This document shows positions 14,429-36,531 of a stretch of 64,000 bases of DNA, in pieces. This DNA is from Pedosphaera parvula Ellin514 (GTDB lineage: Bacteria > Verrucomicrobiota > Verrucomicrobiia > Limisphaerales > Pedosphaeraceae): the NCBI RefSeq assembly GCF_000172555.1, contig NZ_ABOX02000023.1, forward strand, positions 1 through 64,000, read 5' to 3'. The position numbers and the translations under genes were made by a program. The notes beneath the pieces were generated by a model that saw nothing but the letters and a program-made list of their open reading frames with translations, was not told the origin of the DNA and did no database searches. Each line of letters starts with the position of its first letter. Positions within the stretch are counted from its first letter, which is position 1.

Positions 14429-14594
14429 TCGTTCTTTTAAAAAACTCTATTGCATGCCAAAAGAAAAGCGAGGCAGAAAAAAAGAGGATTTTGCCACCGC
14501 CCTCGCACACGACAGGAGATGTTACAAGCTGGGAAGATGATAATTCCTCAATCCCTAACGCCCGGCTCTCAAACTTGACCAGTCTTTGGTGAAC

Positions 14595-19398: not shown

Positions 19399-20202
19399 AT
19401 GAAAATGCAGAGTAGCACGCGGGCCTTTACTTTAATCGAATTGCTGGTGGTTATCGCCATCATTGCCATTTTGGCAGGGTTGCTGTTGCCAGCGCTAAGC
19501 CGGGCCAAGGACAAAGCAAAACGAATCGGTTGCCTGAGCAATCTCAAACAACTGGGCTTGGGCAGCACGATGTATGCGCTGGATTACGAGGGGAATCTTT
19601 GCCCTCCTTCTATCTCCGGTCGGTTCACCGGTTTTCCGCCGGGAACGGCGTTCACCGATCGTGACGGGTCGGATGATGACCTCAATTGGCTGCTGCCTTA
19701 TGCCAAGAACTTTGGCTCCTATGTGTGCCCGGCGACCCAAAACTATATCCGGACCAATATGAGCACCTATGGGGGGCAGCAGTACGTCGCGGACCTGCTC
19801 GACAACGCCCGGGACCTCAAAGCCAGCGGCCACAGCTACGAATGTTTTGGCACGTTCGGTTATGTGACGGGCAATGCGGAGGTTAGCGCGAAAAAGACTG
19901 AAAACAGGCTGGCCAATCAGACGCTCTCCAAGCCGGCGAACAAGACCGGTGCCTCAGTCGGTACTGCGCCTGGGCCTTCCCGAATATTCTTGTTGCTGGA
20001 TGGCGACGACACGGCTAGCGGCACCAAGCCCGGGGCCACCAACAACTGGCCCGATTCTACGGACAATCACGGCGCGGCCGGGTCGACCATGTCTTTTTGC
20101 GACGGCCATGCCAAGTGGGTGGCGCAAAAGTTTTACGACAGTGTAGTCAATATAAGCCAGAACGGGGACACCACGCACGGGCCGGTGATTCCTCTTCCGT
20201 AA
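19399..20202 (+). CDS. Type II secretion/type IV pilin-like protein with H-X9-DG C-terminus
   Basis: The product (267 residues from this start) carries the prepilin methylation/cleavage motif [30 protein letters not shown]. It has Ala rather than Gly at the cleavage site and the invariant Glu at +5. The C-terminus shows H-rich [13 protein letters not shown], the H-X9-DG/DUF1559 signature of the very numerous pseudopilin-like proteins of Planctomycetes and Verrucomicrobia. These are thought to be surface or periplasmic assemblies; individual roles are unknown. The frame opens at 19213 with an excellent GGAGG seven bases upstream, so a 66-residue longer form cannot be excluded. The next gene follows after 53 bp. 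Confidence 0.85.
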
Positions 20203-20255
20203 GTCAACTTCTAGATAGTGTCAAATTCAATACAACAGTCCATTCCAATAACCAG

Positions 20256-23200
20256 ATGAAATCCACAAGAAACACGAATCGTTTGTACCAGCGGTGTCTC
20301 CGCCCGCTGGTGGGGCTCCTGGCGAGTGGGACAGCCGCTTTGCTTCCCTCGCTGTCGGCCGCGCCCGCTCCCAACCACGGCATTGTCGCCGCCAACATTG
20401 ACGTCACCATCAATGACTTTTTCAACAACACTAATTCGGTGAGCTTTAGCCTGCCCTATCAAACCGGCGATTTTCGGATGGCCCAGGAAGGCTCGAATAA
20501 TGGGGACTATGACACGCAGATTGGCGACAATCCCACGAACAACGTCAACGACGGTGTCATGATAACGAGCGTTCGACAAAACGGCCGCGATGACCAATGG
20601 GTTGCGCATCCGAACACGAACTACAGCATCGCCCAGATTGATTATCATCGGCCGGGCGCAGCGCGTGAAGGCGCATATTGGATTCCGGTGGCGATGGCCA
20701 TCAATCCGACCGCGGTGGTGGAATATGATGTCAACGTGGCGGCGGCCTGGTTTCCCTACAACAAATGGATCGGCGGCTTTGCCCGCAATTCCACCGGCGC
20801 CAACGGCGGTGCCCTTGACCTGTTCACCGGCTCACCGGGCCTCGTCCTGGGCACCAACTTCAAAGACCTCGGGGCTGGCAAATCCATCGTGGATTTGAAG
20901 AGCCTGGGCATTGACTCGCGCACCGACGGCACCTTGCTCGTGGTCGGCGGTAAAAACGAAAACAACTATGCGGTGGCCGGCGTTAACACCACCAACGGAA
21001 CTTGGAATTTGTTGTTGCACGACGTGGCCAATAATGCCGCCAGCACCGAACAAGATCCCATCGCGTTTGTCTTCATTCCCAAGACGGACACCAACGTGAT
21101 CTCCGGGCGCTTTCGAGGCGACGGCACCATTTTGACCTACAGCGGGGCCACTCCCCAGTTTACGGTGACCTCCAACAGCGTGGGCACTTTTGAGCTCAAA
21201 CTCATTGGCAAGACGCCCCGGTACGGCGTCTTGATTGTTTCGCCGGAAGGCGGTTTCACCGGGAACCAGGACAATATTGTCAACTATCAGGTGAACGACG
21301 CCGGGGATGGCTGGATTATCGAATCACGTGACATGCCGGCGCCGGCCAATCAGACCCCCAGCAACATCCCGCCGCTGGAAACGCCCGACAACGGCACCTC
21401 GCCCATCTGTGGTTTCGTGTTCATTCCCGGTCCAACGCCCGGCTTCGCAGTCACCCCGACCAACGGACTGGTGACGAGTGAAACCGGCCAACAAGCCACC
21501 TTCTCGGTCGCGCTGCAAACCCGGCCCACTGCCGACGTGACCATCAATCTCAGCTCGAGCGACACCACCGAAGGCGCCGTCTCGCCTGACAGCCTCACCT
21601 TCACCGCCGACAACTGGAACGTGCCCCAAACCGTCACCGTGACCGGCGTGGATGACGCCCTGGTGGACGGACCCGTGGCCTACTCAGTCATCCTGAGTGC
21701 GGCCATCAGCGCGGATTCGGATTATAACGGCCTGACGCCCTCGAGCGTGGCCCTGGTCAACGCCGACGATGAGAGCGGCGGTTTCGTGGTCAGCCCGACG
21801 GGCGGCCTCACCACCACTGAAGCCGGCGGACAGGCGACCTTCACGGTCCGGCTCACCACTGCGCCCACGGCGGACGTGAGCATCAGCCTGGCCTCCAGCG
21901 ACACCACCGAAGGCACCGTTTCTCCTGCCTCGCTGACGTTTAACGCGAGCAACTGGAACCAGGACCAGACGGTCACGATCACCGGTGTGGATGATTTGGT
22001 CGCGGACGGCAACGTGCCTTACACTATCATCACCGGGGCGGCCACCAGCTCTGACCCAAACTATAACGGCTTTAATCCGCCGGATGTAACCGTGGTGAAC
22101 TTGGACAACGACACCGCCGCTCTGAATATTGTGGCGCCTACCAATGGATTCCAGGTCGTCGAAGGCGGGGCGAATACCTACACCGTCGCGTTGCACAGCC
22201 AGCCCACCGCCAATGTGACCATCTCCCTCACCTCCGGCGATACGGCGCAAGGCGGCACGCCCTCCCCCTCGAGTCTCACTTTCACGCCCGCCAACTGGAA
22301 CATCCCCCAGAGCGTGAGCTTTGCTGGCGCTGACGACCTGAACTTGGACGGGAACACCACTTGGCGGCTTACCAACTCGGTAACCTCCTCTGACACGGTC
22401 TATGCCGCCCTGGCACCGGTAGTGCTTGCCGTGACGACGCTCGACAACGAAGCGACAGTTACACTGCCTTCCGGAGACCTAAGATACGGCATCGGCCAGT
22501 CTGGCGTTGGGATTGACGGACGGGCGGCCATTTCCGACCCGAACACACTGAATTACGCCTCCGCCAAGCTGACTGTCGCCCTCACGGCCAACGGCACGGC
22601 GGACGATCGGCTGGAAATCCGCAGCAGCGGTACCGACCCTGGCCAGATCAGTGTCTCCGGCAACACCGTCAGCTACGGCGGAACGGCCATCGCAACCTTC
22701 ACGGGTGGCACGGGTACCGCACCGCTGGTCGCAACCTTCAACGCCGCCACCGACGTTACTGCTGCGCAGGCCCTGCTTCGCAACATCACCTTCCGCAACG
22801 TCAACAGCAATCCCTCGCGCAACCGCCGTGCCGTCTCTGTTACCTTGACGCACAGCGACGGTGGCACCGGCAGCGCGGCCACCGGCATTAGCCTCGGACT
22901 GGTCCGCTTCGCCGACTTCCAGCAGGAGGCTGATCACGGCTACGGCGCCTATACCAACGCCGCCGACATCGAGTTGTTCCAACTGCAGCCCGACACCGCC
23001 CTGCCGCGGGGGCACTCTACCGACACCAACAATCCACAGATGTGGCTGGATTACCGGGATGCGGACACTCCCAATCAAAGCGAGGCCCTCCTGCGCTTCG
23101 ACAATATCGTCGGCAACGGCCCGGGCCAGATTCCCTCCAATGCCATCATCGTGTCCGCCGAGTTGCTCCTAAACGTCAGAGACGCCGGCGATGGCAGCCC

Positions 23201-24371
23201 GCTCTATCGAATGCTGATCCCGTGGGACGCTACTAACGCAACCTGGAACTCCATGGGCAATGGCATTCAGCCCGACGACGTCAAGGCTCGCAGCACGTAC
23301 GACTCCGCGCTGGGCGTGCCGGCAGTAACCGGGGACAGCGGCATCGGTGTGATCAGCGTCGGCGTTACCGTTGATGTCCAGGCTTGGGTGAATGGGGAGA
23401 ACAATTACGGCTGGGGCATGCCATCGTGGAACAGCGAGATTAACCCCACTTGGGGCAACGGCACCGACGGTCTGGGCTTCCGCTGCTGCGAATCGCCCAA
23501 CATCGACGACCGCCCGCGGCTGCGCGTGCTCTGGTTGCCCGCCAGCTCGGTTAGCACGGCGAGTTTCCGGCAGAATGTCAACGGCTATACCAACGCCGCC
23601 GATACCCGCATCCGGCAAAATACCCCGGATGTCTCCGCCGCCACCGCCACAGCGGTTCTCGTGGATTGGGACGTGGCCGGCACCGGAACGCTTAATCCGG
23701 ATGACGTGCTGATTCGCTTCGATCAGGTCATCGGCACCAACCCGGGCCAGGTGCCGCCGGGCGCAGTCGTCGAAGCAGCAATGCTCGATTTGGCGACCGT
23801 CAGCGGCAACGGCTATGGGGATGGGGGTCAATTCTTCGCGATGCTCACTCCGTGGCAGGACACCGATACGTGGAACTCGCTGGGCAATGGCGTCCAAGCC
23901 GACGGCGTGAAAGCGGCGAGCACGCCGACAGTCTCCGCTGGCTCACCGACGCTTAACCCCAACGTGTGCGGCGGGTACATGTCCTTCGAGGTGACGCCTG
24001 ATGCCCAGGCTTGGGTCAGCGGCATCCGCACCAATTACGGCTGGGCCATCCTGCCGTGGAACGGTGGCGGCGACGGCTGGGCCGTCTCGATGTCCGAATC
24101 CACCGACGAACGCGAACGCCCACAATTGCGCGTTTATTACACCGCCGCGGCCACGCCGCTGAGGATTCTCTCCCTGCAGCGCGGCGCCACCACTGTCACG
24201 CTCAAATTCAGCGGCGTGATCGGCAACACCTACTCCGTGCAACGTGCGCCCACCGTCACCGGCGCGTATTCCAGCATCGGCTCCGTTACCGTGCAACCGG
24301 ACGGCACGGCGACGTTCATGGATAATGCACCGCTGGCAGGACAAGCCTTCTATCGCATCTCTGCTCCATAA
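20256..24371 (+). CDS. Large modular secreted protein (Calx-beta-like repeats, two DNRLRE/CBM96-like modules)
   Basis: This 1371-residue protein has a signal peptide (about 1-35, LVGLLASGTAALLPSLSAAPA). An N-terminal domain of about 350 residues is unassigned. Three beta-sandwich repeats follow with an exact 113-residue period (starting at nt 21441, 21780 and 22119), each with SLTF-NWN-Q-V-GVDD-type motifs like Calx-beta/cadherin-like domains. A further Ig/cadherin-like domain leads to two related modules (about 22906-23540 and 23560-24150), each with NAAD, ALLRFD/VLIRFD, WDATNATWNSMGNG/WQDTDTWNSLGNG and VQAWVNG/AQAWVSG. This is the layout of DNRLRE/CBM96-type carbohydrate-binding domains. 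A short C-terminal beta-domain ends the chain. Likely cell-surface adhesion; no catalytic domain seen. Confidence 0.75.
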   Translation: MKSTRNTNRLYQRCLRPLVGLLASGTAALLPSLSAAPAPNHGIVAANIDVTINDFFNNTNSVSFSLPYQTGDFRMAQEGSNNGDYDTQIGDNPTNNVNDGVMITSVRQNGRDDQWVAHPNTNYSIAQIDYHRPGAAREGAYWIPVAMAINPTAVVEYDVNVAAAWFPYNKWIGGFARNSTGANGGALDLFTGSPGLVLGTNFKDLGAGKSIVDLKSLGIDSRTDGTLLVVGGKNENNYAVAGVNTTNGTWNLLLHDVANNAASTEQDPIAFVFIPKTDTNVISGRFRGDGTILTYSGATPQFTVTSNSVGTFELKLIGKTPRYGVLIVSPEGGFTGNQDNIVNYQVNDAGDGWIIESRDMPAPANQTPSNIPPLETPDNGTSPICGFVFIPGPTPGFAVTPTNGLVTSETGQQATFSVALQTRPTADVTINLSSSDTTEGAVSPDSLTFTADNWNVPQTVTVTGVDDALVDGPVAYSVILSAAISADSDYNGLTPSSVALVNADDESGGFVVSPTGGLTTTEAGGQATFTVRLTTAPTADVSISLASSDTTEGTVSPASLTFNASNWNQDQTVTITGVDDLVADGNVPYTIITGAATSSDPNYNGFNPPDVTVVNLDNDTAALNIVAPTNGFQVVEGGANTYTVALHSQPTANVTISLTSGDTAQGGTPSPSSLTFTPANWNIPQSVSFAGADDLNLDGNTTWRLTNSVTSSDTVYAALAPVVLAVTTLDNEATVTLPSGDLRYGIGQSGVGIDGRAAISDPNTLNYASAKLTVALTANGTADDRLEIRSSGTDPGQISVSGNTVSYGGTAIATFTGGTGTAPLVATFNAATDVTAAQALLRNITFRNVNSNPSRNRRAVSVTLTHSDGGTGSAATGISLGLVRFADFQQEADHGYGAYTNAADIELFQLQPDTALPRGHSTDTNNPQMWLDYRDADTPNQSEALLRFDNIVGNGPGQIPSNAIIVSAELLLNVRDAGDGSPLYRMLIPWDATNATWNSMGNGIQPDDVKARSTYDSALGVPAVTGDSGIGVISVGVTVDVQAWVNGENNYGWGMPSWNSEINPTWGNGTDGLGFRCCESPNIDDRPRLRVLWLPASSVSTASFRQNVNGYTNAADTRIRQNTPDVSAATATAVLVDWDVAGTGTLNPDDVLIRFDQVIGTNPGQVPPGAVVEAAMLDLATVSGNGYGDGGQFFAMLTPWQDTDTWNSLGNGVQADGVKAASTPTVSAGSPTLNPNVCGGYMSFEVTPDAQAWVSGIRTNYGWAILPWNGGGDGWAVSMSESTDERERPQLRVYYTAAATPLRILSLQRGATTVTLKFSGVIGNTYSVQRAPTVTGAYSSIGSVTVQPDGTATFMDNAPLAGQAFYRISAP

Positions 24372-24720: not shown

Positions 24721-25653
24721 ATGGAAAAAACCAGTATATTTCATCCAAATTCCCCGTTCGCGCGGTCCACCGTGGACCTCCTGAACGTGACGTTCGTCAT
24801 AAGTGCAGTCATCATGACTCTGGTGTGTGGACTGGTTGCCTATTGCATCTGGCGCTTTCGAGGCCGCCCGGAACATCCGGAACCACATCAACTTCGGGGC
24901 CATAAAACGTTGGAGATTGTTTGGACTGTCATTCCTTTTCTGCTGCTGGTCTACCTGCTGATACTCACAGTCCGATCAATGTATGCATCCGATCCCCCCA
25001 GGCACAACAGAGATCCCGATATTATCGTAACTGGACACCAGTTTTGGTGGGAAGCGAGGTATCCAAAGTCCGGTGTGGTGACAGCAAATGAAATTCATAT
25101 CCCCACGGGCCAACCCCTGTTGCTTCGCCTCGAGTCAGCCGATGTCATCCATGATTTCTGGGTAGGGCAACTGGGGCGGAAAATGGACGTGATGCCCGAC
25201 TACGCGAATTTCATCTGGATTCAGGCCAACCAGCCCAGGGATTACTATGGAGTCTGCGCAGAATTCTGCGGGGTTCAACATGCCTGGATGCGGATTCGGG
25301 TAACCGCTCAATCTCCCGAGGAGTTTGCCGACTGGGAACGGCAACAGCTGCAACCTGCTCCCACTCCTGCAGGTGCATCGGCTCAAAGGGGCGCCGAACT
25401 GTTTAGGCAAATAACCTGCATTAACTGCCACGCCATTCGTGGTCTGCCGGGCGAACCCCACGCCGGACCAGATCTCACCCATGTCGCCACTCGTCAAACC
25501 CTGGGTGCAGGCGTGGTTGAGAACACGCCGGAACATTTGGCGCAGTGGCTCAAAAATCCGCAAAAACTCAAACCGGGCAATCTCATGCCAAACATGTTGC
25601 TCACCGACGCACAGGTGCAGGATATGGTGAGTTATTTCCAGACACTAAAATGA
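24721..25653 (+). CDS. coxB: Cytochrome c oxidase subunit II with C-terminal cytochrome c domain (caa3 type)
   Basis: Subunit II (310 residues) takes electrons into the CuA centre. Two N-terminal membrane helices (about 24-44 and 64-84) are followed by the cupredoxin domain: HQFWWEARYP, the CuA His in DVIHDFW and the CAEFCGVQHAWM cluster giving the two Cys, His and Met ligands. A fused cytochrome c domain at about 215-310 has CINCH as haem site and a likely axial Met in GNLMPNML. The fused haem marks the caa3 type, which accepts electrons directly from a bc complex or a small cytochrome. First gene of the operon; its stop overlaps the next start (ATGA). Confidence 0.95.
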   Translation: MEKTSIFHPNSPFARSTVDLLNVTFVISAVIMTLVCGLVAYCIWRFRGRPEHPEPHQLRGHKTLEIVWTVIPFLLLVYLLILTVRSMYASDPPRHNRDPDIIVTGHQFWWEARYPKSGVVTANEIHIPTGQPLLLRLESADVIHDFWVGQLGRKMDVMPDYANFIWIQANQPRDYYGVCAEFCGVQHAWMRIRVTAQSPEEFADWERQQLQPAPTPAGASAQRGAELFRQITCINCHAIRGLPGEPHAGPDLTHVATRQTLGAGVVENTPEHLAQWLKNPQKLKPGNLMPNMLLTDAQVQDMVSYFQTLK

Positions 25654-27887
25654 GTGAAACAACTTCCAACGCCATTCCGCTCCCCCAACCCGCTTCAGTC
25701 AAGGAAACGGGCTGGCTTTATGGATGGATTACCACAGTCGATCACAAACGCATTGGCATTCTCTATCTGTTTACTGCCCTCGTCTTTTTCGCCATAGCCG
25801 GCATCATGGCCCTGCTCATGCGTCTGCAACTGGCCTTCCCAAACAACACTCTCATCCATCCGGCTGCTTATAATCAGCTGTTTACCATGCATGGCACAAC
25901 CATGGTATTCCTGGTCGGAATGCCCATGCTCATCGGGTTCGCCAATTATTTTGTCCCGCTGATGATCGGCGCACGCGACATGGCATTTCCACGACTGAAC
26001 GCCATGACGTTGTGGATGCTGGTATTCGGAGGCATCCTGCTCTACTTCAGCTACGCAACGGGCGATCCTCCTGCCGTCGGCTGGTTCAGCTATGCGCCCC
26101 TGAGTGAAAAATCTTTCTCCTCCGGCCCCGGGGTGAACTACTGGATTGCATCTCTACTCATTCTGGGCACCAGCTCGATCGCTGCCGGCGTTAATTTGAT
26201 CGCAACGGTTTTGTCGCTCCGCGTTCGAGGAATGACCATGCGCAAACTGCCGCTCTTTGTCTGGATGTCCTTCATCACCGCAGTCCTCATCATTTTTGCG
26301 CTCCCTGCACTCAATGTGGCCATCGTGATGCTGTTGATTGATCGGCAACTGAATTCCTTTTTTTTCAGCCCGCTCCGCGGCGGCGCATCCATCCTGTGGC
26401 AGCACTTCTTTTGGGCCTTCGGTCATCCGGAGGTCTACATCCTCGCGCTGCCCGCTTTTGGAATGATTTCGGAAGTGCTGCCGGTATTCTCCCGCAAGCC
26501 GATCTTTGGTTACGAATTCGTTGCAACTTCGGGCGTCATCATCGCCCTGCTGAGCTACGGAGTCTGGGCTCATCATATGTTCGCTTCCGGGTTGGGGCAC
26601 GCTGCTGAAATCTTTTTTGGAGCTGCAAGCATGCTCATCGCCATCCCGACGGGAGTAAAGGTTTTCAACTGGATAGCCACCATGTGGGGCGGCTCGCTGC
26701 GTTTCACCACTTCCATGCTGTTTGCCATAGGCTTTCTCGTCAATTTCACCCTTGGCGGACTCAGCGGCGTCACGTTCACCGCTGTTCCGGCCAACTGGCA
26801 AACAACGGACACCTATTATGTCGTTGCGCATTTCCATTATGTGTTGATCGGCGGCACAGTCTTCGGGACCTTCGCCGGCCTGTACTACTGGTTCCCCAAA
26901 ATGAGTGGCCGCATGCTCTCCGAGCGCCTCGGCAAATGGCATTTTTGGCTGACAATGATCTCCTTCAATTTGACTTTCTTTGTGCAACACATCCTTGGCC
27001 TCATCGGCATGCCGCGTCGCGTGTACACTTATCCAGATCTCCCTTATTACGCCTCTTTGAACCTCATTTCCACCGCGGGAGCGGTGCTCTCCGCAGTCGC
27101 AGTGCTGGTCCTGCTCTGGAATATTTTCCGGAGCCTGCGCCATGGCGAACCTGCGGGGGACAATCCTTGGAGGGCTTTTACATTGGAATGGATCACCACC
27201 TCTCCTCCGGCAGAACACAACTTTGAACGCGTGCCGCCTGTGCACAGCCGCCGGCCGGTATGGGACCTGATGCATCCGGAAAATCCAGACCCGCCCATCT
27301 CCGGCGTGGTCAACCAGGATAGCCCTTATCTGGAAAAGAACTTTGTCGGCATGTGGAGCTTCATTCTTTCTGAAGCGACTTTCTTCGCCCTCCTGATTTC
27401 AGGTTACATCTATTATAATGCCTATTGGCACAGCACTGGGCCTGATGCAGCGGCCCATCTCAACCGCAATCTTGCAACCGTATTCACTCTGTTCCTCCTG
27501 GCCAGCAGCCTCACGTTCTGGCTCGCGGAGAAGAACCTGCATCGCGGCAATCACCATAGCTTTCGCTTCTGGTTGGTCATCACAATACTGCTCGGCCTGG
27601 TTTTTATCGTGGGACAAGGCCATGAATACTTCGATCTGTTCCGTCGCGGCGTTACCATCGATACGACCCTCTTCGCCAGTTCGTTTTTCACCCTGACCGG
27701 TTTTCACGGGTTGCATGTCTGCGTCGGCTTGATTGGCTTGCTGATCGTACTCTGGCTGGCATTCAAAGGTGATTTCAAATCGGGACGAATCGAGGCGGTG
27801 AGAACCATTGGCTTTTACTGGCACTTTGTCGACGTGGTTTGGATCTTTGTCTTTACAACCGTTTATCTCGTCGGACCACATCTATGA
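25650..27887 (+). CDS. Cytochrome c oxidase subunit I fused to subunit III
   Basis: This 745-residue chain holds the O2-reducing core. The subunit I part (about 1-540) shows the low-spin haem His in FTMHGTTM, the CuB His and cross-linked Tyr in FGHPEVYILALP, HHMF, and the haem pair in VAHFHYVLIGG. After a linker of about 50 residues, the subunit III part begins at about residue 560 (FVGMWSFILSEATFFALLISGYIYYNA) and runs to GFYWHFVDVVWIFVF. Such I/III fusions are known in caa3 oxidases, for example Thermus. The start at 25650 shares ATGA with the coxB stop, and its own stop shares ATGA with ctaG, so translation is coupled. Confidence 0.93.
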   Translation: MSETTSNAIPLPQPASVKETGWLYGWITTVDHKRIGILYLFTALVFFAIAGIMALLMRLQLAFPNNTLIHPAAYNQLFTMHGTTMVFLVGMPMLIGFANYFVPLMIGARDMAFPRLNAMTLWMLVFGGILLYFSYATGDPPAVGWFSYAPLSEKSFSSGPGVNYWIASLLILGTSSIAAGVNLIATVLSLRVRGMTMRKLPLFVWMSFITAVLIIFALPALNVAIVMLLIDRQLNSFFFSPLRGGASILWQHFFWAFGHPEVYILALPAFGMISEVLPVFSRKPIFGYEFVATSGVIIALLSYGVWAHHMFASGLGHAAEIFFGAASMLIAIPTGVKVFNWIATMWGGSLRFTTSMLFAIGFLVNFTLGGLSGVTFTAVPANWQTTDTYYVVAHFHYVLIGGTVFGTFAGLYYWFPKMSGRMLSERLGKWHFWLTMISFNLTFFVQHILGLIGMPRRVYTYPDLPYYASLNLISTAGAVLSAVAVLVLLWNIFRSLRHGEPAGDNPWRAFTLEWITTSPPAEHNFERVPPVHSRRPVWDLMHPENPDPPISGVVNQDSPYLEKNFVGMWSFILSEATFFALLISGYIYYNAYWHSTGPDAAAHLNRNLATVFTLFLLASSLTFWLAEKNLHRGNHHSFRFWLVITILLGLVFIVGQGHEYFDLFRRGVTIDTTLFASSFFTLTGFHGLHVCVGLIGLLIVLWLAFKGDFKSGRIEAVRTIGFYWHFVDVVWIFVFTTVYLVGPHL

Positions 27888-28717
27888 CAACAACACAATT
27901 TCTATCCTCAAGCTGGAACGTGATCCCCGCAGCCTTGACATTGTGCGTTCTCCTACTGGCCGCCGGCATGGGAAGACAGATTTCTTCAGCACGTCATAAG
28001 CTCTGGCTGGCATTGGCCGCCGCTCTCTTTGCAGTGGCGATGTTCTCTCCCCTCAACGCCCTAGCCAGGGGATATCTATTCAGTGCACATATGGCTCAGC
28101 ACCTCTTACTGCTTCTAATCATCCCTGCCCTGTTCTGTCTCAGTTTGCCAGTCCAATCCGCTCAACACTCAACGCGGAATGAAAAATGTCCTGAACCCAA
28201 TATCTCTGTGAAGAGCCTTGTAATCTCCTGGCTCGCGGGAGTAGGCGCCATGTGGCTCTGGCACATCCCTGCCTTCTGCAACGCAGCAGCCACAAATGAC
28301 TGGATTCGACGTTTGCAAACCATTTCCCTCCTGATCATGGGGGGAATGTTCTGGTGGCCTGTTCTCCGCCCCGGCACTTCCCGGCGGATTGCACCACTTG
28401 CCGGTGTGGCCTATTTGTTCATGGCCTGCATGGCCTGCACGCTCCTCGGAATTTACATCACCTTTTCCCCGGTGCCTGTCTGTTCGGCTTATCATCACCC
28501 TGTCGATCGACTCGGCATCCTCCCCTTGATCCGGCAGCAGTGGGGTCTCACCCCTTCTGTGGATCAACAGGTGGGTGGCTTGTTGATGTGGGTTCCATCC
28601 TGCTTGATTTACCTCGTCGGTATTATCGGGCAACTCGCCCGCTGGTACGGCAATAATGAACCCGCAGAAGCCCCGTTCGTCCCCAGCCCGCAAGCAGGAG
28701 GGGCCGGAACCTCATAA
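27884..28717 (+). CDS. ctaG: CtaG-type cytochrome oxidase assembly/membrane protein (caa3 family)
   Basis: A 277-residue protein with about seven membrane helices, matching the caa3_CtaG family (PF09678). Characteristic motifs are SAHMAQHLLLLL, MWLWHIPAFCNAA, GGMFWWPVLRP and DQQVGGLLMWVPSCLIYL. In Bacillus this protein is needed for oxidase assembly, probably copper or haem insertion; here the role is inferred from that family and the gene order. It overlaps the subunit I/III gene by four bases. It is not the unrelated Cox11-type CtaG. Confidence 0.88.
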   Translation: MTTTQFLSSSWNVIPAALTLCVLLLAAGMGRQISSARHKLWLALAAALFAVAMFSPLNALARGYLFSAHMAQHLLLLLIIPALFCLSLPVQSAQHSTRNEKCPEPNISVKSLVISWLAGVGAMWLWHIPAFCNAAATNDWIRRLQTISLLIMGGMFWWPVLRPGTSRRIAPLAGVAYLFMACMACTLLGIYITFSPVPVCSAYHHPVDRLGILPLIRQQWGLTPSVDQQVGGLLMWVPSCLIYLVGIIGQLARWYGNNEPAEAPFVPSPQAGGAGTS

Positions 28718-28736
28718 CCCGTTTCGAAAACAATTT

Positions 28737-28967
28737 ATGGCCAACAATACCGTTCATCTACCCGCTACACCGCCCCCGGATTGGGATGTCGCACGACCGG
28801 AAAGACCGCCCGGGCCATCTCTGGCTCCTGCGGCCCTGTCACTCGCATCCACTTTTCTGATTTGGGGCCTGATCAGTTCACCCATCATCAGTGGCATCGG
28901 AGCGATTCTGTTCGCAGTATCGCTGGCAGCATGGATCAAAAGTATTCGCCATGAAAGAAACTCATAA
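28737..28967 (+). CDS. Small membrane protein of the oxidase operon
   Basis: This 76-residue protein has a Pro-rich N-terminus (LPATPPPDWDVARPERPPGP) and two hydrophobic segments joined by a tight turn (SLAPAALSLASTFLIWGL and GAILFAVSLAAWIKSI). It may be a subunit IV-like small component of the oxidase, but I see no family match. An in-frame ATG at 28656 would add 27 residues inside ctaG; I prefer 28737. The last 17 bases overlap the Rieske gene. Confidence 0.6.
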   Translation: MANNTVHLPATPPPDWDVARPERPPGPSLAPAALSLASTFLIWGLISSPIISGIGAILFAVSLAAWIKSIRHERNS

Positions 28968-29487
28968 TCAAGGGCCTCCCCATCCACAATCGCCCGCCAC
29001 CCCGGAGGAACTTTCAAGACGGGCGTTTTTCCGGGACATAAGCCTCGTTCTTGGCGGCTGCATCACCTTGGGATTGGCCGCCCCTCTGGTTGGTTTTATC
29101 TTCAGTCCGCTGACTCGCCACGAGCCGAAAGTCTGGCGCTCTGTCGGGAAGGTTGATTCTTTCAAAATCGGTGAGACAGTGGATGTGCGCTATGATGATG
29201 CTTCGCCGGAACCATGGGCGGGCGTCACAGCGCGCACAGCAGCATGGTTGCGACGGGAGAGCGAGAACACCTTCGTTGCCTTCTCGATTAATTGCACTCA
29301 TCTGGGATGTCCGGTTCGATGGCTGCCTGCGGCAAGACTGTTTATGTGTCCCTGCCATGGCGGCGTGTTCTATGAAAACGGGGACGTGGCCGCAGGGCCG
29401 CCTGAGCGTCCTCTCACCCGCTATCCCGTTCGGGTGCTGAATGGTGAGGTACAGATAGAAACCGCTCCCATCCCGATTGTTAGCTGA
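28951..29487 (+). CDS. Rieske iron-sulfur protein of a bc-type complex
   Basis: The protein has 178 residues. A twin-arginine-like SRRAFFRDI precedes a single membrane anchor (about 36-56), then the soluble Rieske domain with CTHLGC and CPCHGG as the 2Fe-2S ligands, spaced by a short insertion (PVRWLPAARLFM). It takes electrons from quinol at the Qo site and passes them to cytochrome c. It overlaps the preceding small gene by 17 bases, and the cytochrome b gene follows after 13 bp. Confidence 0.93.
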   Translation: MKETHNQGPPHPQSPATPEELSRRAFFRDISLVLGGCITLGLAAPLVGFIFSPLTRHEPKVWRSVGKVDSFKIGETVDVRYDDASPEPWAGVTARTAAWLRRESENTFVAFSINCTHLGCPVRWLPAARLFMCPCHGGVFYENGDVAAGPPERPLTRYPVRVLNGEVQIETAPIPIVS

Positions 29488-29500
29488 CGCAGGAATTGTC

Positions 29501-30904
29501 ATGATCAGAAGAAAGCTCAAGCAGACTTGGGAGTGGCTCGACGATCGCGTGGGGTTCACGGAAACATTCGGCCCGATGATCACACATCTGGTGCCGCGTG
29601 GAGCACGGTGGTGGTACGTTTTCGGCAGTGCGACTCTGTTCGCTTTCATGATTCAGGTTATCTCCGGCGTCGCCCTCGCCTTCTCCTATATTCCCTCCAC
29701 CGCACACGCCTATGAGACCTTGCAGTTCATCACAAACCAGGCACCATTCGGCAATTTCCTTCGCGCTCTCCATTACTACGGAGCCTCCGCAATGGTGCTG
29801 ATGGTTGGACTCCACATGGCTCAGGTGTTCCTGTTTGGAGCCTACAAATACCCTCGAGAGATGACCTGGGTTACCGGCGTGATGATGTTGGGATTTGTCC
29901 TGATCATGGGTTTTACGGGACAACTTTTGCGCTGGGATCAAACCGGCGTTTGGTCAGTAATTGTCGCTGCGGAACAGGTTGGACGAACGCCTTTGATCGG
30001 TGACTGGCTGGCACGATTTACCCTGGGTGGCGACACCGTGGGCGGAGCCACGCTAAGCCGCTTTTTTGCCATACATGTTTTCATCATGCCGGCAATGGTC
30101 TTTGCCTTCGTCGGCATTCACTTGCTTGGGGTTTTGCGACACGGCATTTCTCCACCGCCGAAACCTGGTCAGTTTCTTTCCCGCAAGACATACCATCAGG
30201 AGTATGCAGATTATCTCAAGAAGGATGGAGTGCCGTTCTGGCCTGATTCGGCCTGGCGCGATGTGGTTTTTGGAGCAGCCATGGCAGCTGTCATCGTGAT
30301 CCTGGCGTTGGCATTCGGCCCGCCGGAGCTGGGCAAACAGCCCGATCCAAGTCTGGTTGAAGCATATCCAAGGCCGGACTGGTATCTGCTCTGGTATTTT
30401 GCTGTGCTGGCACTTCTGCCCAAAGGAACGGAAACCTGGTTCATGGTCTTTGGCCCCATGCTGGCAGGATTTTGGCTGATTGTCCTCCCATTCATCTCAA
30501 AGAGGGGTGAACGCAGCCCGCGTCGGCGCCCCTGGGCGTGGGCGGCCGTGCTCATGGTTGTTATAATGATCGCGACTTTTTGGAGGGCGGGCATAAAATC
30601 CAATTGGTCACCCAATTTCAATATCGAACCCCTGTCGGAAAAAGTCGTTGGAGCTGCGAGCGGTCCGATTGCTGCAGGCGCACACCTGTTTTACTCCAAA
30701 GGCTGCTTGAACTGCCATCTGATCGAAAATTACGGTGGACGACGCGGTCCGGACCTCACCAACATCGGCAGCCAACGTACGAAGGAACAACTCATCCTTA
30801 CCATCCTGGGTGGACGAGGAAATATGCCTGCCTATGCAAGCAATATCACGCCTGAAGAAATGAAGGAATTAACGACCTTCCTCGAGTCTCGCAAGCAACG
30901 CTGA
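29501..30904 (+). CDS. Cytochrome b fused to a C-terminal cytochrome c domain
   Basis: This 467-residue membrane protein forms the quinol-oxidising core. The first ~200 residues are the four-helix cytochrome b part with haem His pairs in ALHYYGASAMVLMVGLHMAQVF and RFFAIHVFIMPAMVFAFVGIHLLG. The second part has PDWYLLWYF, the b6f/menaquinol-type variant of the PEWY Qo motif. After a last helix, a periplasmic cytochrome c domain (about 380-467) carries CLNCH and GNMPAYAS, whose Met is a likely axial ligand. AGGA precedes the ATG at the right distance. With the Rieske gene it makes a compact three-cofactor bc complex feeding the caa3 oxidase in the same operon. Confidence 0.93.
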   Translation: MIRRKLKQTWEWLDDRVGFTETFGPMITHLVPRGARWWYVFGSATLFAFMIQVISGVALAFSYIPSTAHAYETLQFITNQAPFGNFLRALHYYGASAMVLMVGLHMAQVFLFGAYKYPREMTWVTGVMMLGFVLIMGFTGQLLRWDQTGVWSVIVAAEQVGRTPLIGDWLARFTLGGDTVGGATLSRFFAIHVFIMPAMVFAFVGIHLLGVLRHGISPPPKPGQFLSRKTYHQEYADYLKKDGVPFWPDSAWRDVVFGAAMAAVIVILALAFGPPELGKQPDPSLVEAYPRPDWYLLWYFAVLALLPKGTETWFMVFGPMLAGFWLIVLPFISKRGERSPRRRPWAWAAVLMVVIMIATFWRAGIKSNWSPNFNIEPLSEKVVGAASGPIAAGAHLFYSKGCLNCHLIENYGGRRGPDLTNIGSQRTKEQLILTILGGRGNMPAYASNITPEEMKELTTFLESRKQR

Positions 30905-31146: not shown

Positions 31147-31944
31147 GTGAAGTCGTGGAAATGGTTCGCCGGATACCTCATGTCTCTCGGCATCGGGTCT
31201 CTGGTTCTGCTCCTCAATTCCTGTTCCACCACCGATCGAACCATCGTTGCTCCCCCTCAAATCGAGGGTGCCACTTTCGTCGGTGATAAAGCCTGCCTCG
31301 AATGCCACGCCAACATCAGCCACGCCTTCCCCGCCAGCCCTCATGCACGGCTGCGTCTCGAGAAAGCTGGTATGCCCGGTGTTCAAGGCTGCGAATCCTG
31401 CCATGGCCCCGCCAGCAAACATGTCGCCGTCGGTGGCGGGCGCGGCAGATTCATCATCAATCCCGGCAAAGACCCTCAATCCTGTTTCCAATGCCACCTC
31501 GAAACCGAGGCCGCCTTTCATCTTCCCCAACATCATCCCCTCATCGAAGGGAAAATGAACTGTGTCCAATGCCACGACCCGCACGGTTTGGACATCATGA
31601 AACCAAAACATGGTCTCGCCATGTCACGCCTGAATGAGACCTGCTCCCAGTGTCATCGCGAACAAACGCGTCCCTTCGTATTCGAACACGAAGCGCTTCG
31701 GGAAGGCTGCATCGTCTGCCACAGTCCCCACGGCTCCATCAACGCCAAGATGCTAATCCAGCGCGATTCAAATCTTTGTCTCAAATGCCACGCACAAATC
31801 CAGGGTCCCGGCGCTGGCGGCACCGGGCATATCTTCATTGGCAAGGAAGATCACACCGACCATCTCCGCTACGGCACCTGCTGGACTGCCGGCTGCCACA
31901 CCGCCATCCATGGCTCAAACATTAACCCTCACATGTTCTATTGA
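31147..31944 (+). CDS. Octahaem c-type cytochrome, DmsE/MtrA-like lipoprotein
   Basis: This 265-residue exported protein has a lipobox-like LLNSC near residue 30. Seven CXXCH sites follow in order: CLECH, CESCH, CFQCH, CVQCH, CSQCH, CIVCH, CLKCH. An eighth, atypical site CWTAGCH (CX4CH) lies near the C-terminus. Many extra His (HLPQHHPL, KHGLAMS, HGSINAK, DHTDHLRY) can be distal ligands. The spacing and the DPHG/SPHG repeats recall the DmsE/MtrA electron-transfer cytochromes, which have ten haems. The start is GTG with CGGAGG six bases upstream. A barrel gene follows after 32 bp, as mtrB-type genes follow mtrA. Confidence 0.85.
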   Translation: MKSWKWFAGYLMSLGIGSLVLLLNSCSTTDRTIVAPPQIEGATFVGDKACLECHANISHAFPASPHARLRLEKAGMPGVQGCESCHGPASKHVAVGGGRGRFIINPGKDPQSCFQCHLETEAAFHLPQHHPLIEGKMNCVQCHDPHGLDIMKPKHGLAMSRLNETCSQCHREQTRPFVFEHEALREGCIVCHSPHGSINAKMLIQRDSNLCLKCHAQIQGPGAGGTGHIFIGKEDHTDHLRYGTCWTAGCHTAIHGSNINPHMFY

Positions 31945-31976
31945 AGCAGTGAGCCGTACCATTTTCCAGAAGCGCC

Positions 31977-34352
31977 ATGACTTACCCACTCTCATCCCGG
32001 TCCGGTCCGGCTCTATTTTTGCTCCTATTAACTCTAAGTATCGCCGCAACTGCTGCCGAGGCGGATCTTTCCAAACTGCCTCCGCCCGCCACCAACCACA
32101 TTGACTTCTCGCGCGATATCCAACCCATCTTCAATCAGTCATGCCTCCGTTGTCATGGGCCGGAAAAACCGAAAAGTCATTTCCGCCTCGATAATCGTGA
32201 CTCGGCCATCAAAGGTGGGGAAAATGGCGTGGACATCCTCCCCGGTAACAGCGCCAAAAGTCCACTCGTCCAATTCGTCGCCGGGCTGCCGGAGGAGATG
32301 CAAATGCCTCCCGCCGGCAAAGGCAATCCCTTGACTCCCGGTCAAATCGCCCTGCTCCGCGCCTGGATTGATCAGGGCGCAATGTGGAGTTCCACCGCCC
32401 CCACCAATACTCTCGCCTTCACCTTTTCCCCCACCCTGCGTTTCATCACTGTGAATGGAAACGAGCAGCAGTTCCGGGAACATTACTGGCAACGCGAAGG
32501 TTGGAACGGTGGTGTGGAACAATTCGAACTGACGGAGCAAGTCAAACCCGACACCAAGGTCATGACTTTGGGTCATGTCCTGCAGGACGATTACAGACTG
32601 GAATTGTCCGTGCAAAAGGATGAAGTCGGTTTCGTGCACACGGGCTGGGAACAATATCGCAAATACTATTCTGATACGGGCGGCTTCTATCCCACTTTCA
32701 CTCCCCAGGTGTTTAGCCTCGACCGCGACCTGCACCTCGATATCGGACGTGCCTGGATTGACTTCGGACTCACCCTGCCCAACTGGCCGCAAATGGTTTT
32801 AGGCTACGAATACCAATATAAAAACGGCAATAAATCCACTCTCGAATGGGGCGACATCGTGCAAGGCGGAATCGATCGCAAAATTGCTCCCGCCAGCCAG
32901 TACCAGAACGAACGAACCCACATCATCAAATTCGATTTAAGTTACGATATTCAGGGTATCCAGCTTGAGGATAATTTCCGTGGCGAGTTCTACTCTTTGC
33001 GCACCCATGATACCAATGTCATTTTTTTCCCGGCCGTCAGCACCTTCCAGGGTGAAAGCGTCAGCGAAGGTTACCATCATTTCCAGGGCGCCAACACACT
33101 CCATGCTGAAAAACAGTTCAATGATTGGCTGTTCGGCTCGGCCGGCTACCTCTACAGCCACCTGAACGCTGATGCCTCCTTCAGCGTTGACACGATCAAT
33201 CTCTCCGGCATTGCTCTCCCGCAACACCGCTGGCGCGGTCCTGACATCACCCTCGAACGTGAATCGCAGGTCTTCAACTTAAGCACGCTCCTCGGCCCAT
33301 GGGATGGTCTGACTCTCTCGGCTGGCGTCCAAAACGAATACACCCGCCAAAAAGGTTTCGGTAACGACAATTTTGATGAAATTTTTGGCGCCAACTTCTT
33401 CTTTCCTGTCCCCGTCACCACCACTTCCGATTTGGATACGGCGTTGGTCGAGGAAAATATTGGCGTGCGTTATACAAAAATTCCTTTCACCGCGCTGTTC
33501 GCCGATGCCCGGTTGCGCCAGGAAAGCATCGGCCAGTTTGAAGAGGAGAAAGGGGGCGACCAGGAATTCTTACGGAAAACGGACTTTTCGAGCCAGCTTT
33601 ATGACATTCGCACCGGCTTCAATACTTCTCCCTGGCCGTGGGTCTCTTTCACCGCGCAATTTCGCCGCTACGACGATAACAGCCACTATAATAACACGCT
33701 GGATCAACAGCCCATCGGCTTCCCGGGCATTGGCTATTCGGCCTTCATCCGCGCACGTGATCTTCTCACGGATGAAGTGGAAACCAAAATCGCCCTGCGC
33801 GTCACCAGTTGGTTTAGGACCACACTTTCCTATCGGATGCTCTCGTCTGATTATCATACCACCACCGATCCCGTCCCCTTTGGCATCTCTCCGGGCGGCA
33901 CTTTGCTGGCGGGACACTCCGATGACCACATCTACAGCCTGGGCGCCACTGTCACCCCTTTTCAACGGCTTTATCTTTCTGGGACTTTCTCCTACCAAAA
34001 CTCCAGCACCGTCACCGCCAACAACGGCGACCCCTCGATTGTCCCCTATCGCGGCGATATCTACAGCGTTCTTGCCAATGCCACCTATGTGCTGAGTCAG
34101 GCTACCGACATATTTGCGACTTACTCCTTTTCCTACGCCGATTATGCTCAAAATAATTTTGTCGCCGGCCTGCCCGTAGGCATCCGCTACCAGCAACACG
34201 TCATTCAAGGCGGTTTATTGCGCCGCTTCGGTAAAAATCTCTCGGCCAAACTCCAATACGCCTATTTCCTCTACGACGAACCCACGAGCGGCACCTTCAA
34301 TAATTATAACGCTCAAGGCATTTTCGCGACGCTCACCTACAGGTTTCAATAA
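31977..34352 (+). CDS. Outer-membrane beta-barrel with N-terminal PSC1-type haem domain
   Basis: A 791-residue protein. A signal peptide (about 1-27) leads to a cytochrome domain at about 43-135: IDFSRDIQPIFNQSCLRCHGPEK, LRLD-like FRLDNRD, GG, MPPAGKGNPLT and LLRAWIDQGAMW, the layout of PSCyt1 (PF07635). The remaining ~640 residues are alternating amphipathic strands rich in Tyr, Trp and Gly, with charged loops and no other domain, ending in LQYAYFLYDEP...IFATLTYRFQ, as expected for a large barrel of about 26-30 strands like MtrB/PioB. No N-terminal CXXC of the MtrB type is seen; the haem domain takes its place. It follows the octahaem cytochrome by 32 bp. Confidence 0.75.
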   Translation: MTYPLSSRSGPALFLLLLTLSIAATAAEADLSKLPPPATNHIDFSRDIQPIFNQSCLRCHGPEKPKSHFRLDNRDSAIKGGENGVDILPGNSAKSPLVQFVAGLPEEMQMPPAGKGNPLTPGQIALLRAWIDQGAMWSSTAPTNTLAFTFSPTLRFITVNGNEQQFREHYWQREGWNGGVEQFELTEQVKPDTKVMTLGHVLQDDYRLELSVQKDEVGFVHTGWEQYRKYYSDTGGFYPTFTPQVFSLDRDLHLDIGRAWIDFGLTLPNWPQMVLGYEYQYKNGNKSTLEWGDIVQGGIDRKIAPASQYQNERTHIIKFDLSYDIQGIQLEDNFRGEFYSLRTHDTNVIFFPAVSTFQGESVSEGYHHFQGANTLHAEKQFNDWLFGSAGYLYSHLNADASFSVDTINLSGIALPQHRWRGPDITLERESQVFNLSTLLGPWDGLTLSAGVQNEYTRQKGFGNDNFDEIFGANFFFPVPVTTTSDLDTALVEENIGVRYTKIPFTALFADARLRQESIGQFEEEKGGDQEFLRKTDFSSQLYDIRTGFNTSPWPWVSFTAQFRRYDDNSHYNNTLDQQPIGFPGIGYSAFIRARDLLTDEVETKIALRVTSWFRTTLSYRMLSSDYHTTTDPVPFGISPGGTLLAGHSDDHIYSLGATVTPFQRLYLSGTFSYQNSSTVTANNGDPSIVPYRGDIYSVLANATYVLSQATDIFATYSFSYADYAQNNFVAGLPVGIRYQQHVIQGGLLRRFGKNLSAKLQYAYFLYDEPTSGTFNNYNAQGIFATLTYRFQ

Positions 34353-34518
34353 AAAGTTCATTAACTTGGGAACAAAACTGAAGTAATCGCCTCCTAATCT
34401 CAAGTGGTTGCTGTTTAAGGGTTATTTGTTTGCAACATCTGCAAATCAGGATACCCTGAAAATCGAGCGATCATCTTAAATGCGTACTGATAATCGAACA
34501 CCTAACCTGAAAGCTAAG

Positions 34519-35376
34519 ATGAGAATTCAAAATCAGTTCCCCTTCAAAATCCCGTTGGCCGCTCTTCTCCTGGCGCTTTTAATTCTTTCCCAAAACTCGG
34601 CTTCGGCTGCCACCACAAACGTGGCTTTCGGCGGAGCCACCCTCACCTTCAGACCTGCTGTCATCACCATCAACGTCGGCGATACCATCGTCTTTTCCAA
34701 TGCCGGCGGTTCACACACCGTAACCGGCACCGGCACCGACCCTTTCTGCGGCAGCGGCGGCGTCACCACCTCCTGCTCGCATACCTTCAACACCGTCGGT
34801 TCATTCGGTTATCAATGCATACCTCATGCGGGGGTAGGCATGGTCGGCACGGTCAACGTGGTTGCTGCTTCTGTTCCACCCACAATCAGCCTGACCGCCC
34901 CGGCCTCCGGGGCCGTTTATGCCGCCCCAGCCAATGTGAAGTTCACTACTACAGTCACTGCCGGCACCGGTTCAGTCACCAATGTGCAATATTTTGCAAA
35001 CGTCACTAATTCCCTGGGCTCCACCCCCTCTTCCCCTTTCAACTTTACCGCGTCCAACCTGGCAGCCGGAATTTATTCTCTCACCGGCAAGGCGCAAAAC
35101 AGCGTCGGCCTGGCAACTACCTCTTCTCCGGTTTCAATTACCGTGGTCAGTCCCGTCGCGATTTCCAACTTCCTCGCCCAAGTCACGAATGGTCAGTTTA
35201 CCTTTGAGCACACTGCCAACCCCGGTCTCAAATACGTGGTGGAAAAATCCGCCGACCTGACCGCCTGGTCACCGACTGTTACCAACACCGCCAGCAGCAA
35301 CAGCGTGCATGTAAGCGACGCTTTCCAGGTTGGAACGCTGCGCTTCTACCGGGTCGGCCGCCTGCCAAATCCCTAA
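34519..35376 (+). CDS. Secreted blue-copper (plastocyanin-like) protein with Ig-like domain
   Basis: The protein has 285 residues. A signal peptide (about 1-31, ending SASA) is followed by a cupredoxin domain at about 33-115. Type 1 copper ligands are readable: His in GGSHTVTG, then Cys, His and Met in YQCIPHAGVGM. An extra Cys pair (FCGS, TSCSH) may form a disulfide. An Ig-like beta domain (about 120-205) and a C-terminal VVEKSADLTAW-type domain common in Verrucomicrobia exported proteins complete it. It lies 166 bp after the barrel gene and could be a periplasmic or extracellular one-electron carrier for it. An earlier start at 34480 is possible. Confidence 0.78.
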   Translation: MRIQNQFPFKIPLAALLLALLILSQNSASAATTNVAFGGATLTFRPAVITINVGDTIVFSNAGGSHTVTGTGTDPFCGSGGVTTSCSHTFNTVGSFGYQCIPHAGVGMVGTVNVVAASVPPTISLTAPASGAVYAAPANVKFTTTVTAGTGSVTNVQYFANVTNSLGSTPSSPFNFTASNLAAGIYSLTGKAQNSVGLATTSSPVSITVVSPVAISNFLAQVTNGQFTFEHTANPGLKYVVEKSADLTAWSPTVTNTASSNSVHVSDAFQVGTLRFYRVGRLPNP

Positions 35377-35499
35377 AAGATTCTGGTTTGCTGAGAAGCT
35401 CATACTCATAAAAACATCGCGTCAGCCATCCCCAAGAATAAATATTGGGCTCACATCGTCCATCCGATACACTTGGTAGCAGAAGCTCCCAATTATCTG

Positions 35500-36531
35500 A
35501 TGAAACGCATTTGTTCGCTCTTTCTATTTCTCGCTCTCACCGCTACCGCCATGGCGTCGGCATCCGCCGATCCCGCCAATCCGAACGCCAACGCCAAAGC
35601 GCGTGCAATTCTCAGCTATTTCCAAAGCCTCGCCTCTGCTCGGACCAATCGCATCCTCTCCGGCCAGTTCACTGATGCCGGCCCGAGAGCAAGCCTCAAA
35701 CTGCTTGAGAACATCCAGAGCCAAACCGGCCACTGGCCCGCGCTCATGGGCGCTGATTACGCCAACTATGGACGAGGCAGCCTTACCTCCAAGGAACCAA
35801 ATCAGGCAGCCATCGATTACTGGAAACAAGGCGGTCTCGTCACCATCAGTGCACACCTATACAATCCCGCCAACACCAATGGCGGCGGCCTGCGGGATAA
35901 GGGTGTTGACCTGAACACCCTTCTCGATCCCAATTCAGACACTCACAAACGTTGGATGAACGAACTCGACACCATTGCCACCGGCCTGCAACAACTCAAA
36001 GACGCCGGCGTTGTCGTCCTCTGGCGCCCTTTCCACGAAATGAATGGCGGTTGGTTCTGGTGGGGTGATAAAGACCCCGAAACTTTCAAGAAAGTCTGGC
36101 AACACATGTTCCACTACTTCACCACCACCAAAAAGCTCGACAACCTCCTCTGGGTCTACAGCCCCAACCACGGCAAAAATACGGCCGCCTATTATGCTGG
36201 TGACAACTACGTCGATCTCGTCGGCCTCGATGCCTATACCGACTTCGTCGATAAACAACACATCCACGGTTACGATGAAGTGGCTGAGTTGCCCAAGCCC
36301 TTCGGCTTCACCGAATACGGCCCGCATGGTTCGGAGAAGCCGCCCGGCGATTACGATTATCGCCGCTTCATCGCCGGCGTGGAAAAAGACTTCCCGAAAA
36401 CCTGCTTCTTCATGTGCTGGAATTGGAAATGGAGTCTCGCCATGAATAATAACACCAAGGAACTTCTTGATAACCCCGCGATCGCCAATCGCGAAAACAT
36501 TCCGGCTCAACTCACAGGAACTGGCAAGTAA
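35500..36531 (+). CDS. Secreted glycoside hydrolase family 26, probable beta-mannanase
   Basis: This 343-residue enzyme has a signal peptide (MKRICSLFLFLALTATAMASASA). The GH26 fold is shown by RILSGQF near the N-terminus, the acid/base Glu in VLWRPFHEMNGGWFWW and the nucleophile Glu in FGFTEYGPHG, with WVYSPNHG and YYAGDNYVDLVGLDAY between. The family mainly cleaves beta-1,4-mannan; lichenase and xylanase activity also occur. It would act outside the cytoplasm on plant hemicellulose. No sugar transporter or other hydrolase is beside it. Confidence 0.88.
   Translation: MKRICSLFLFLALTATAMASASADPANPNANAKARAILSYFQSLASARTNRILSGQFTDAGPRASLKLLENIQSQTGHWPALMGADYANYGRGSLTSKEPNQAAIDYWKQGGLVTISAHLYNPANTNGGGLRDKGVDLNTLLDPNSDTHKRWMNELDTIATGLQQLKDAGVVVLWRPFHEMNGGWFWWGDKDPETFKKVWQHMFHYFTTTKKLDNLLWVYSPNHGKNTAAYYAGDNYVDLVGLDAYTDFVDKQHIHGYDEVAELPKPFGFTEYGPHGSEKPPGDYDYRRFIAGVEKDFPKTCFFMCWNWKWSLAMNNNTKELLDNPAIANRENIPAQLTGTGK

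Follow-up and report, generated by a model that had tools for sequence, protein, structure and literature searches.

The window analyzed here, a 64,000-nucleotide stretch at positions 1 to 64,000 of contig NZ_ABOX02000023.1, belongs to the 7.41-Mb genome (102 contigs) of Pedosphaera parvula Ellin514, a published and cultured isolate. Inspection of its open reading frames confirmed three plus-strand genes at 31147-35376, which encode an octahaem cytochrome, a haem-bearing barrel and a cupredoxin in this order. The bc-caa3 operon that the initial annotation had placed upstream of them was also verified by Pfam. The features of the locus are as follows.

24721 to 30904, plus strand: bc-caa3 respiratory operon with COX2, COX1/COX3, CtaG, Rieske and cytochrome b-c (Pfam)
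31147 to 31944, plus strand: octahaem c-type cytochrome, predicted lipoprotein, MtrA/DmsE-like, 265 aa (motifs, profile matches)
31222 to 31224, plus strand: lipobox cysteine Cys26, invariant in 24 homologues from both clades described below
31879 to 31899, plus strand: atypical CX4CH site (CWTAGCH) for the eighth haem, kept in nearly all relatives
31977 to 34352, plus strand: outer-membrane beta-barrel protein with N-terminal haem domain, 791 aa (Pfam PSCyt1, AlphaFold model)
32142 to 32318, plus strand: PSCyt1 monohaem domain, CXXCH and Met110 (MPP), candidate His/Met haem (Pfam, E = 4.9e-13)
32412 to 34346, plus strand: barrel domain of MtrB fold, 26 strands (AlphaFold model, aligned to 6r2q_B)
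34480 to 35376, plus strand: secreted type 1 copper protein with cupredoxin, Big_7 Ig and C-terminal domains (Pfam)
34624 to 34860, plus strand: cupredoxin domain (Pfam Copper-bind, residues 49-127)

The octahaem gene starts with GTG, shortly downstream of a GGAGG, and its stop lies 33 bases from the start of the barrel ORF, while the probable start of the copper protein is an internal ATG at 34519. Scanning the locus for promoters and terminators gave nothing beyond the level of shuffled sequence. As to the surroundings, a GH26 glycoside hydrolase gene (35473-36531) lies directly 3' of the cupredoxin gene, and a very long ORF for a secreted multi-domain protein (20097-24371, 1424 aa) has a G+C content of about 0.6, above that of the rest of the window.

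Properties of the three encoded proteins

The octahaem protein possesses seven CXXCH motifs and one CWTAGCH (CX4CH), amounting to eight candidate haem sites. In an alignment of 24 homologues, the lipobox Cys and the eight haem motifs were conserved, and the CX4CH was found to be turned into CXXCH in one relative (L124) via a two-residue deletion. This replacement, together with the conservation in the relatives, suggested that the CX4CH is a genuine haem site. Among the periplasmic cytochromes of Mtr and Pcc systems, no atypical haem motif had been observed by 2014 (PMC4245776).

A profile built from the 24 homologues matched MtrA of the solved Mtr complex with an E value of 2.6e-40 in two overlapping stretches (6r2q_A; the molecule name in the file is wrong, but the entry is a chain of the Mtr complex with a multihaem sequence). 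This match and the invariant Cys26 substantiated the earlier description of the protein as a multihaem DmsE/MtrA-like lipoprotein. Its best NCBIfam match was the GSU2203 decahaem family (NF041028; 6e-49, 166.9 bits, under the cut-off of 325), to which all 24 homologues also matched, and the DmsE decahaem family (TIGR03508) was matched at 7.5e-45 with 153.4 bits, under the cut-off of 192.2. The DmsE/MtrA family is defined by ten haems, and the present protein has eight sites; judging from the two overlapping stretches of the MtrA alignment, we read it as a putative MtrA-like cytochrome minus two internal haems. The haem number had been regarded as a distinguishing mark, but it was ruled out as a novelty, since the nearest kin of the locus, the type B loci whose barrels bear no haem domain, likewise have eight. 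Elsewhere, divergent MtrA-like cytochromes with 8 and 10 haems were encountered (L050:8107-8859 in genome G331 and L051:9209-10300 in G161, respectively), with no barrel homologue detected alongside, and in a genome of the same family the octahaem match was split in two inside one 287-aa open frame (G498:C73:47229-48005).

In the barrel protein, residues 56-114 were assigned to PSCyt1, which was matched by all 37 barrel family members, and the Cys/Cys/His and Met-Pro-Pro of this domain were invariant among 24 barrels of the haem-fused type (type A). The barrel's own haem domain, named in the initial annotation as a difference from known systems, was thus corroborated as a PSCyt1 fusion. The AlphaFold model of the barrel (pLDDT 86.9), which rests on 37 sequences, displayed 26 strands, as counted by hand from the listed structure elements, spanning model residues 120 to 764, with the PSCyt1 domain standing ahead of strand 1. 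Against solved structures, MtrB was the top match both in Foldseek (5.3e-14) and in VIA-align (6r2q_B; Z = 22.0, rmsd 4.2, 576 of 649 residues), the next row of the latter having Z = 16.4 at rmsd 11.6 and all other barrels Z values of 13-16. On these scores, a TonB receptor was rejected and the large barrel proposed to lie beside the cytochrome was upheld; the question raised earlier as to whether the model would be a closed barrel was answered by the 26-strand MtrB fold. The same strand number has been reported for MtrB/PioB/MtoB (PMC10654088). The window barrel matched neither of the MtrB_PioB family models of Pfam and NCBIfam (PF11854 and TIGR03509), which were matched by five (best 4.9e-6) and two of the 37 relatives, respectively, and comparison of the barrel profile with PDB chains returned haem-domain fragments only and no barrel match. 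Given the even number of strands and the topology of MtrB, the PSCyt1 end would be periplasmic. The same genome also encodes a stand-alone 140-aa PSCyt1 cytochrome (L052:9268-9690; G000 contig C11, around 14408-14546), the gene for which matches a section of the fused haem domain with approximately 70% DNA identity over 139 bases; the barrel fusion may have originated from this cytochrome, or the latter may act as a soluble partner.

The third protein was matched by the Pfam domains Copper-bind (E = 4e-9) and Big_7 (Ig domain, 6e-9), and its type 1 copper ligand set, H and C-x2-H-x4-M, was complete in the window and kept in most of the linked or aligned homologues, in good agreement with the secreted blue-copper protein originally suggested. 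Judging from its Ig-like and C-terminal domains, the protein may reside outside the cell rather than in the periplasm.

Conservation and gene neighborhoods of the two clades

The octahaem gene was found immediately upstream of the barrel gene in all 91 loci compared, which consisted of 60 fetched type A loci, the window, and 30 type B loci (20 from the wider phylum and 10 from the order). All 60 fetched type A loci had it directly upstream on the same strand, and it likewise stood ahead of the barrel gene in all 30 type B loci. The adjacency in every relative examined indicated that the arrangement is not due to chance. Of the 320 genomes of the order that were searched, more than 100 contained full-length homologues of the haem-fused barrel, as counted by hand from the list of the barrel search, and type A was found throughout this one order; in a 388-genome sample of the phylum, all 20 fetched octahaem loci, the window's own aside, were of type B. 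The relatives were mostly labelled Verrucomicrobiota, the labels being those of the submitters and some of them evidently wrong. In a tree of 93 octahaem proteins obtained by a quick, short search, the 61 rows with haem-fused barrels were located on one side of a branch with an SH-aLRT of 91, the haem-fused type forming one clade. Both types were present together in one genome (G534, L120 and L148). A same-genus genome (G504) and a same-family genome (G499) gave no octahaem match, indicating that the conduit system is dispensable.

The neighborhoods of the two types were different. Another multihaem gene, defined as one with three or more CXXCH within 7 kb, was observed in none of the 61 type A loci versus 27 of the 31 type B loci, the neighbors of which include NapC/NirT and b561-multihaem proteins; a monohaem cytochrome was present within 7 kb in 18 of 30 type B loci. 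In the genome of P. parvula, no NapC/NirT gene was found, and the octahaem gene held the only paired-CXXCH matches above the cut-off. Separately, a gene for an ECF-type sigma factor recurred near type A loci (18/61; L097:11609-12142 and similar) and possibly represents their regulator.

Of the 61 type A loci, 29 encode a cupredoxin domain on the same strand at a distance of up to 3 kb, versus none of the 27 type B loci; these counts include related genomes many times and hence are not independent events. They were made with the cupredoxin domain alone, as a full-length query may match via the shared Ig and C-terminal domains. The 41 control loci (569 kb) contained no cupredoxin, and the whole genome of P. 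parvula gave four Copper-bind matches in 7.4 Mb, a frequency which argues that the linkage to type A is not background. Relative to the pair, the cupredoxin gene is on the upstream side in some families and on the downstream side in others, and this change of side and the spread over many families argued for repeated maintenance of the linkage. In roughly half of the type A loci, no cupredoxin was encoded within 3 kb. In nine type A loci, all of which have the cupredoxin, a gene for an SCO1/CusF copper protein was situated just upstream of the cytochrome gene. The copper carrier, likewise listed by the initial annotation among the differences, stood as a feature of type A; as for the expectation that the three genes be kept together, it was borne out for the octahaem-barrel pair in all loci examined and in part for the cupredoxin. 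In addition, a Rieske-like protein with a twin-arginine-like leader adjoins the cupredoxin in the type A clusters of family f83 (L106:7062-7862, L110:7171-7965), possibly as a further high-potential electron carrier.

The position just behind a bc-caa3 operon, on the other hand, proved not to be general: it was seen only in the window among the 61 type A loci, with a partial COX2-like ORF at the contig end in L091. The operon was thus ruled out as part of the conserved unit, its adjacency being particular to the window genome.

Proposed mechanism and direction of electron flow

Taken together, these results make it rather likely that the locus specifies an MtrAB-type conduit for electrons across the outer membrane, composed of an octahaem wire, a 26-strand barrel, a PSCyt1 domain and a cupredoxin partner. 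In the proposed mechanism, the lipid-anchored octahaem cytochrome would be inserted in the MtrB-like barrel, and this MtrA-like wire, two haems shorter, would provide a haem path through the outer membrane; because the structure prediction of the octahaem protein had a pLDDT of 41 and was left unused, the wire is placed inside the pore by analogy. The fused PSCyt1 domain, presumably at the inner (periplasmic) mouth, would exchange electrons with soluble carriers, and the cupredoxin would serve as a soluble one-electron partner that replaces the surface multihaem cytochrome and the NapC-type quinol dehydrogenase. Such a conduit would work at cytochrome c/copper potentials and be joined to the cytochrome c pool, not directly to quinol. 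As far as gene neighborhoods can tell, those of type B would point to the quinone pool and those of type A to the cytochrome c/copper level. In this genome, the adjacent bc-caa3 chain is perhaps the link to the oxidase, for which the adjacency constitutes weak evidence, since the relatives are without it.

The porin-cytochrome conduit first proposed for the locus was supported by the MtrB fold and the constant octahaem-barrel adjacency, the passage of electrons across the membrane being inferred. The predicted MtrAB-like conduit is conserved and probably real, and it represents no new principle but a variant, probably of high potential (haem c/copper). More tentatively, type A may represent an order-wide class of high-potential conduits, in which a barrel-borne haem domain and a blue copper protein would read out the haem wire with no multihaem cytochromes, linking aerobic Verrucomicrobiota of soil and freshwater with extracellular partners at the level of cytochrome c/caa3.

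With regard to direction, we lean slightly toward inward flow, because neither quinol dehydrogenase nor surface multihaem genes were present. Similarly to PioAB/MtoAB or the Cyc2-rusticyanin chain, electrons from Fe(II), reduced humics or Mn(II) would then pass through the wire to PSCyt1/cupredoxin and finally to the caa3 oxidase. This possibility, which falls somewhat short of an even chance, is consistent with the surface cytochrome missing from Fe(II)-oxidising Mtr clusters (PMC4245776), with the resemblance of a small high-potential carrier (copper or other) beside a conduit to rusticyanin or PioC (PMC10654088), and with the bc-caa3 operon adjoining the conduit genes in this genome. The adjacency is not conserved, however, the extra domains of the cupredoxin hint at a location outside the periplasm, and there is no evidence of lithotrophy.

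An outward respiratory conduit, through which electrons of heterotrophic origin would reach extracellular humics, Fe(III) or Mn(IV) and for which the cupredoxin would act as a shuttle, either external or periplasmic, appears somewhat less likely. In its favor, the cytochrome-barrel pair is shared with type B, which has NapC-type, b561-type and other multihaem genes, and verrucomicrobial porin-multihaem clusters have been proposed to transfer electrons to humics (PMC5615132). Against it, genes for NapC, b561 or surface multihaem proteins were found near none of the type A loci (0/61), the NapC/NirT gene is absent from this genome, and the Ellin514 isolate is an aerobe.

Improbable in our view is a conduit that serves extracellular redox enzymes with polysaccharides or lignin as their substrates, the secreted cupredoxin being the electron carrier to or from them. 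The secretion and the Ig-like domain of the cupredoxin, the neighboring GH26 gene and the abundance of carbohydrate degradation genes in verrucomicrobial genomes (PMC5615132) would fit such a role, but the annotated representatives of the recurrent neighbor families included no glycoside hydrolase, and as to an LPMO partner, no AA10 LPMO was found in this genome. It is very improbable that the barrel is a usual porin or a receptor of the TonB type whose gene just happens to adjoin that of a periplasmic carrier cytochrome. Single relatives gave weak hits to profiles of other barrels, which might lend this view some color, but the structural match to MtrB is far better (Z of 22 versus 13-16) and the adjacency to the MtrA-like cytochrome is invariant in both clades.

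Work on extracellular electron transfer has mostly concerned metal reducers and iron oxidisers. In the present case, a predicted MtrAB-like conduit is widespread in a large and for the most part uncultured order, whose soil and freshwater members are not usually seen as electroactive. The division into type B, with multihaem neighbors and a proposed link to quinones, and type A, with a haem-fused barrel and a proposed link to copper, gives a testable prediction of redox potential and direction, and the cultured isolate Ellin514 makes the question accessible in culture.

Comparison with known conduits

The window genes share with MtrAB, MtoAB and PioAB an MtrA-related cytochrome and a 26-strand barrel of MtrB fold encoded by adjacent genes, and the Fe(II)-oxidising versions of those systems are without a surface cytochrome (PMC4245776). 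They differ in that the cytochrome is a lipoprotein with eight rather than ten haem sites, the last being CX4CH, in the extra haem domain of the barrel and the cupredoxin, and in that the family cut-offs were unreached. MtrCAB differs further by its surface decahaem MtrC, the 61 type A loci having no second multihaem gene within 7 kb.

We know of no copper partner of the Geobacter pair GSU2203 (OmcK)/GSU2204, the cytochrome of which defines the best-matching NCBIfam family but is decahaem, the window protein being far under its cut-off (166.9 of 325). GSU2204, a barrel of the MtrB/PioB family, itself bears a CXXCH (PMC13188914), and its model was weakly matched by some of the barrel relatives in strand regions. 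GM18_3465 is also a barrel with a haem motif (PMC4245776). In Cyc2, an outer-membrane barrel is likewise joined to a monohaem domain within one protein, but this barrel has approximately 17 strands and operates with no separate multihaem wire (PMC10654088); the 26 strands of the window barrel ruled out a Cyc2-type reading, and the octahaem partner gene is also adjacent. In the rusticyanin chain of Acidithiobacillus, a cupredoxin similarly works with an outer-membrane electron entry, although the types of cupredoxin and barrel are different.

The closest description is that of octahaem-plus-porin clusters in Verrucomicrobia by He et al. (2017), where an eight-haem periplasmic cytochrome beside a large porin was hypothesised to form a conduit and electron transfer to humics was proposed (PMC5615132). 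The window genes agree with that description in its eight haem sites, its porin of 20 or more transmembrane strands and its verrucomicrobial origin, and type B, judged from this text rather than from sequences, is probably the porin-multihaem system concerned. The text mentions neither a haem domain of the porin nor a cupredoxin, and several of the clusters carry extracellular multihaem genes (PMC5615132). The claim of a distinct type of conduit consequently stood in part: the basic octahaem-porin pair of Verrucomicrobia is known already (PMC5615132), as are barrels with a haem motif. No description of a PSCyt1-fused barrel or of a cupredoxin-linked conduit was found in the open-access literature, within which the type A variant is apparently undescribed; it is set apart by its haem-fused barrel, its copper partner and a neighborhood free of other multihaem cytochromes.
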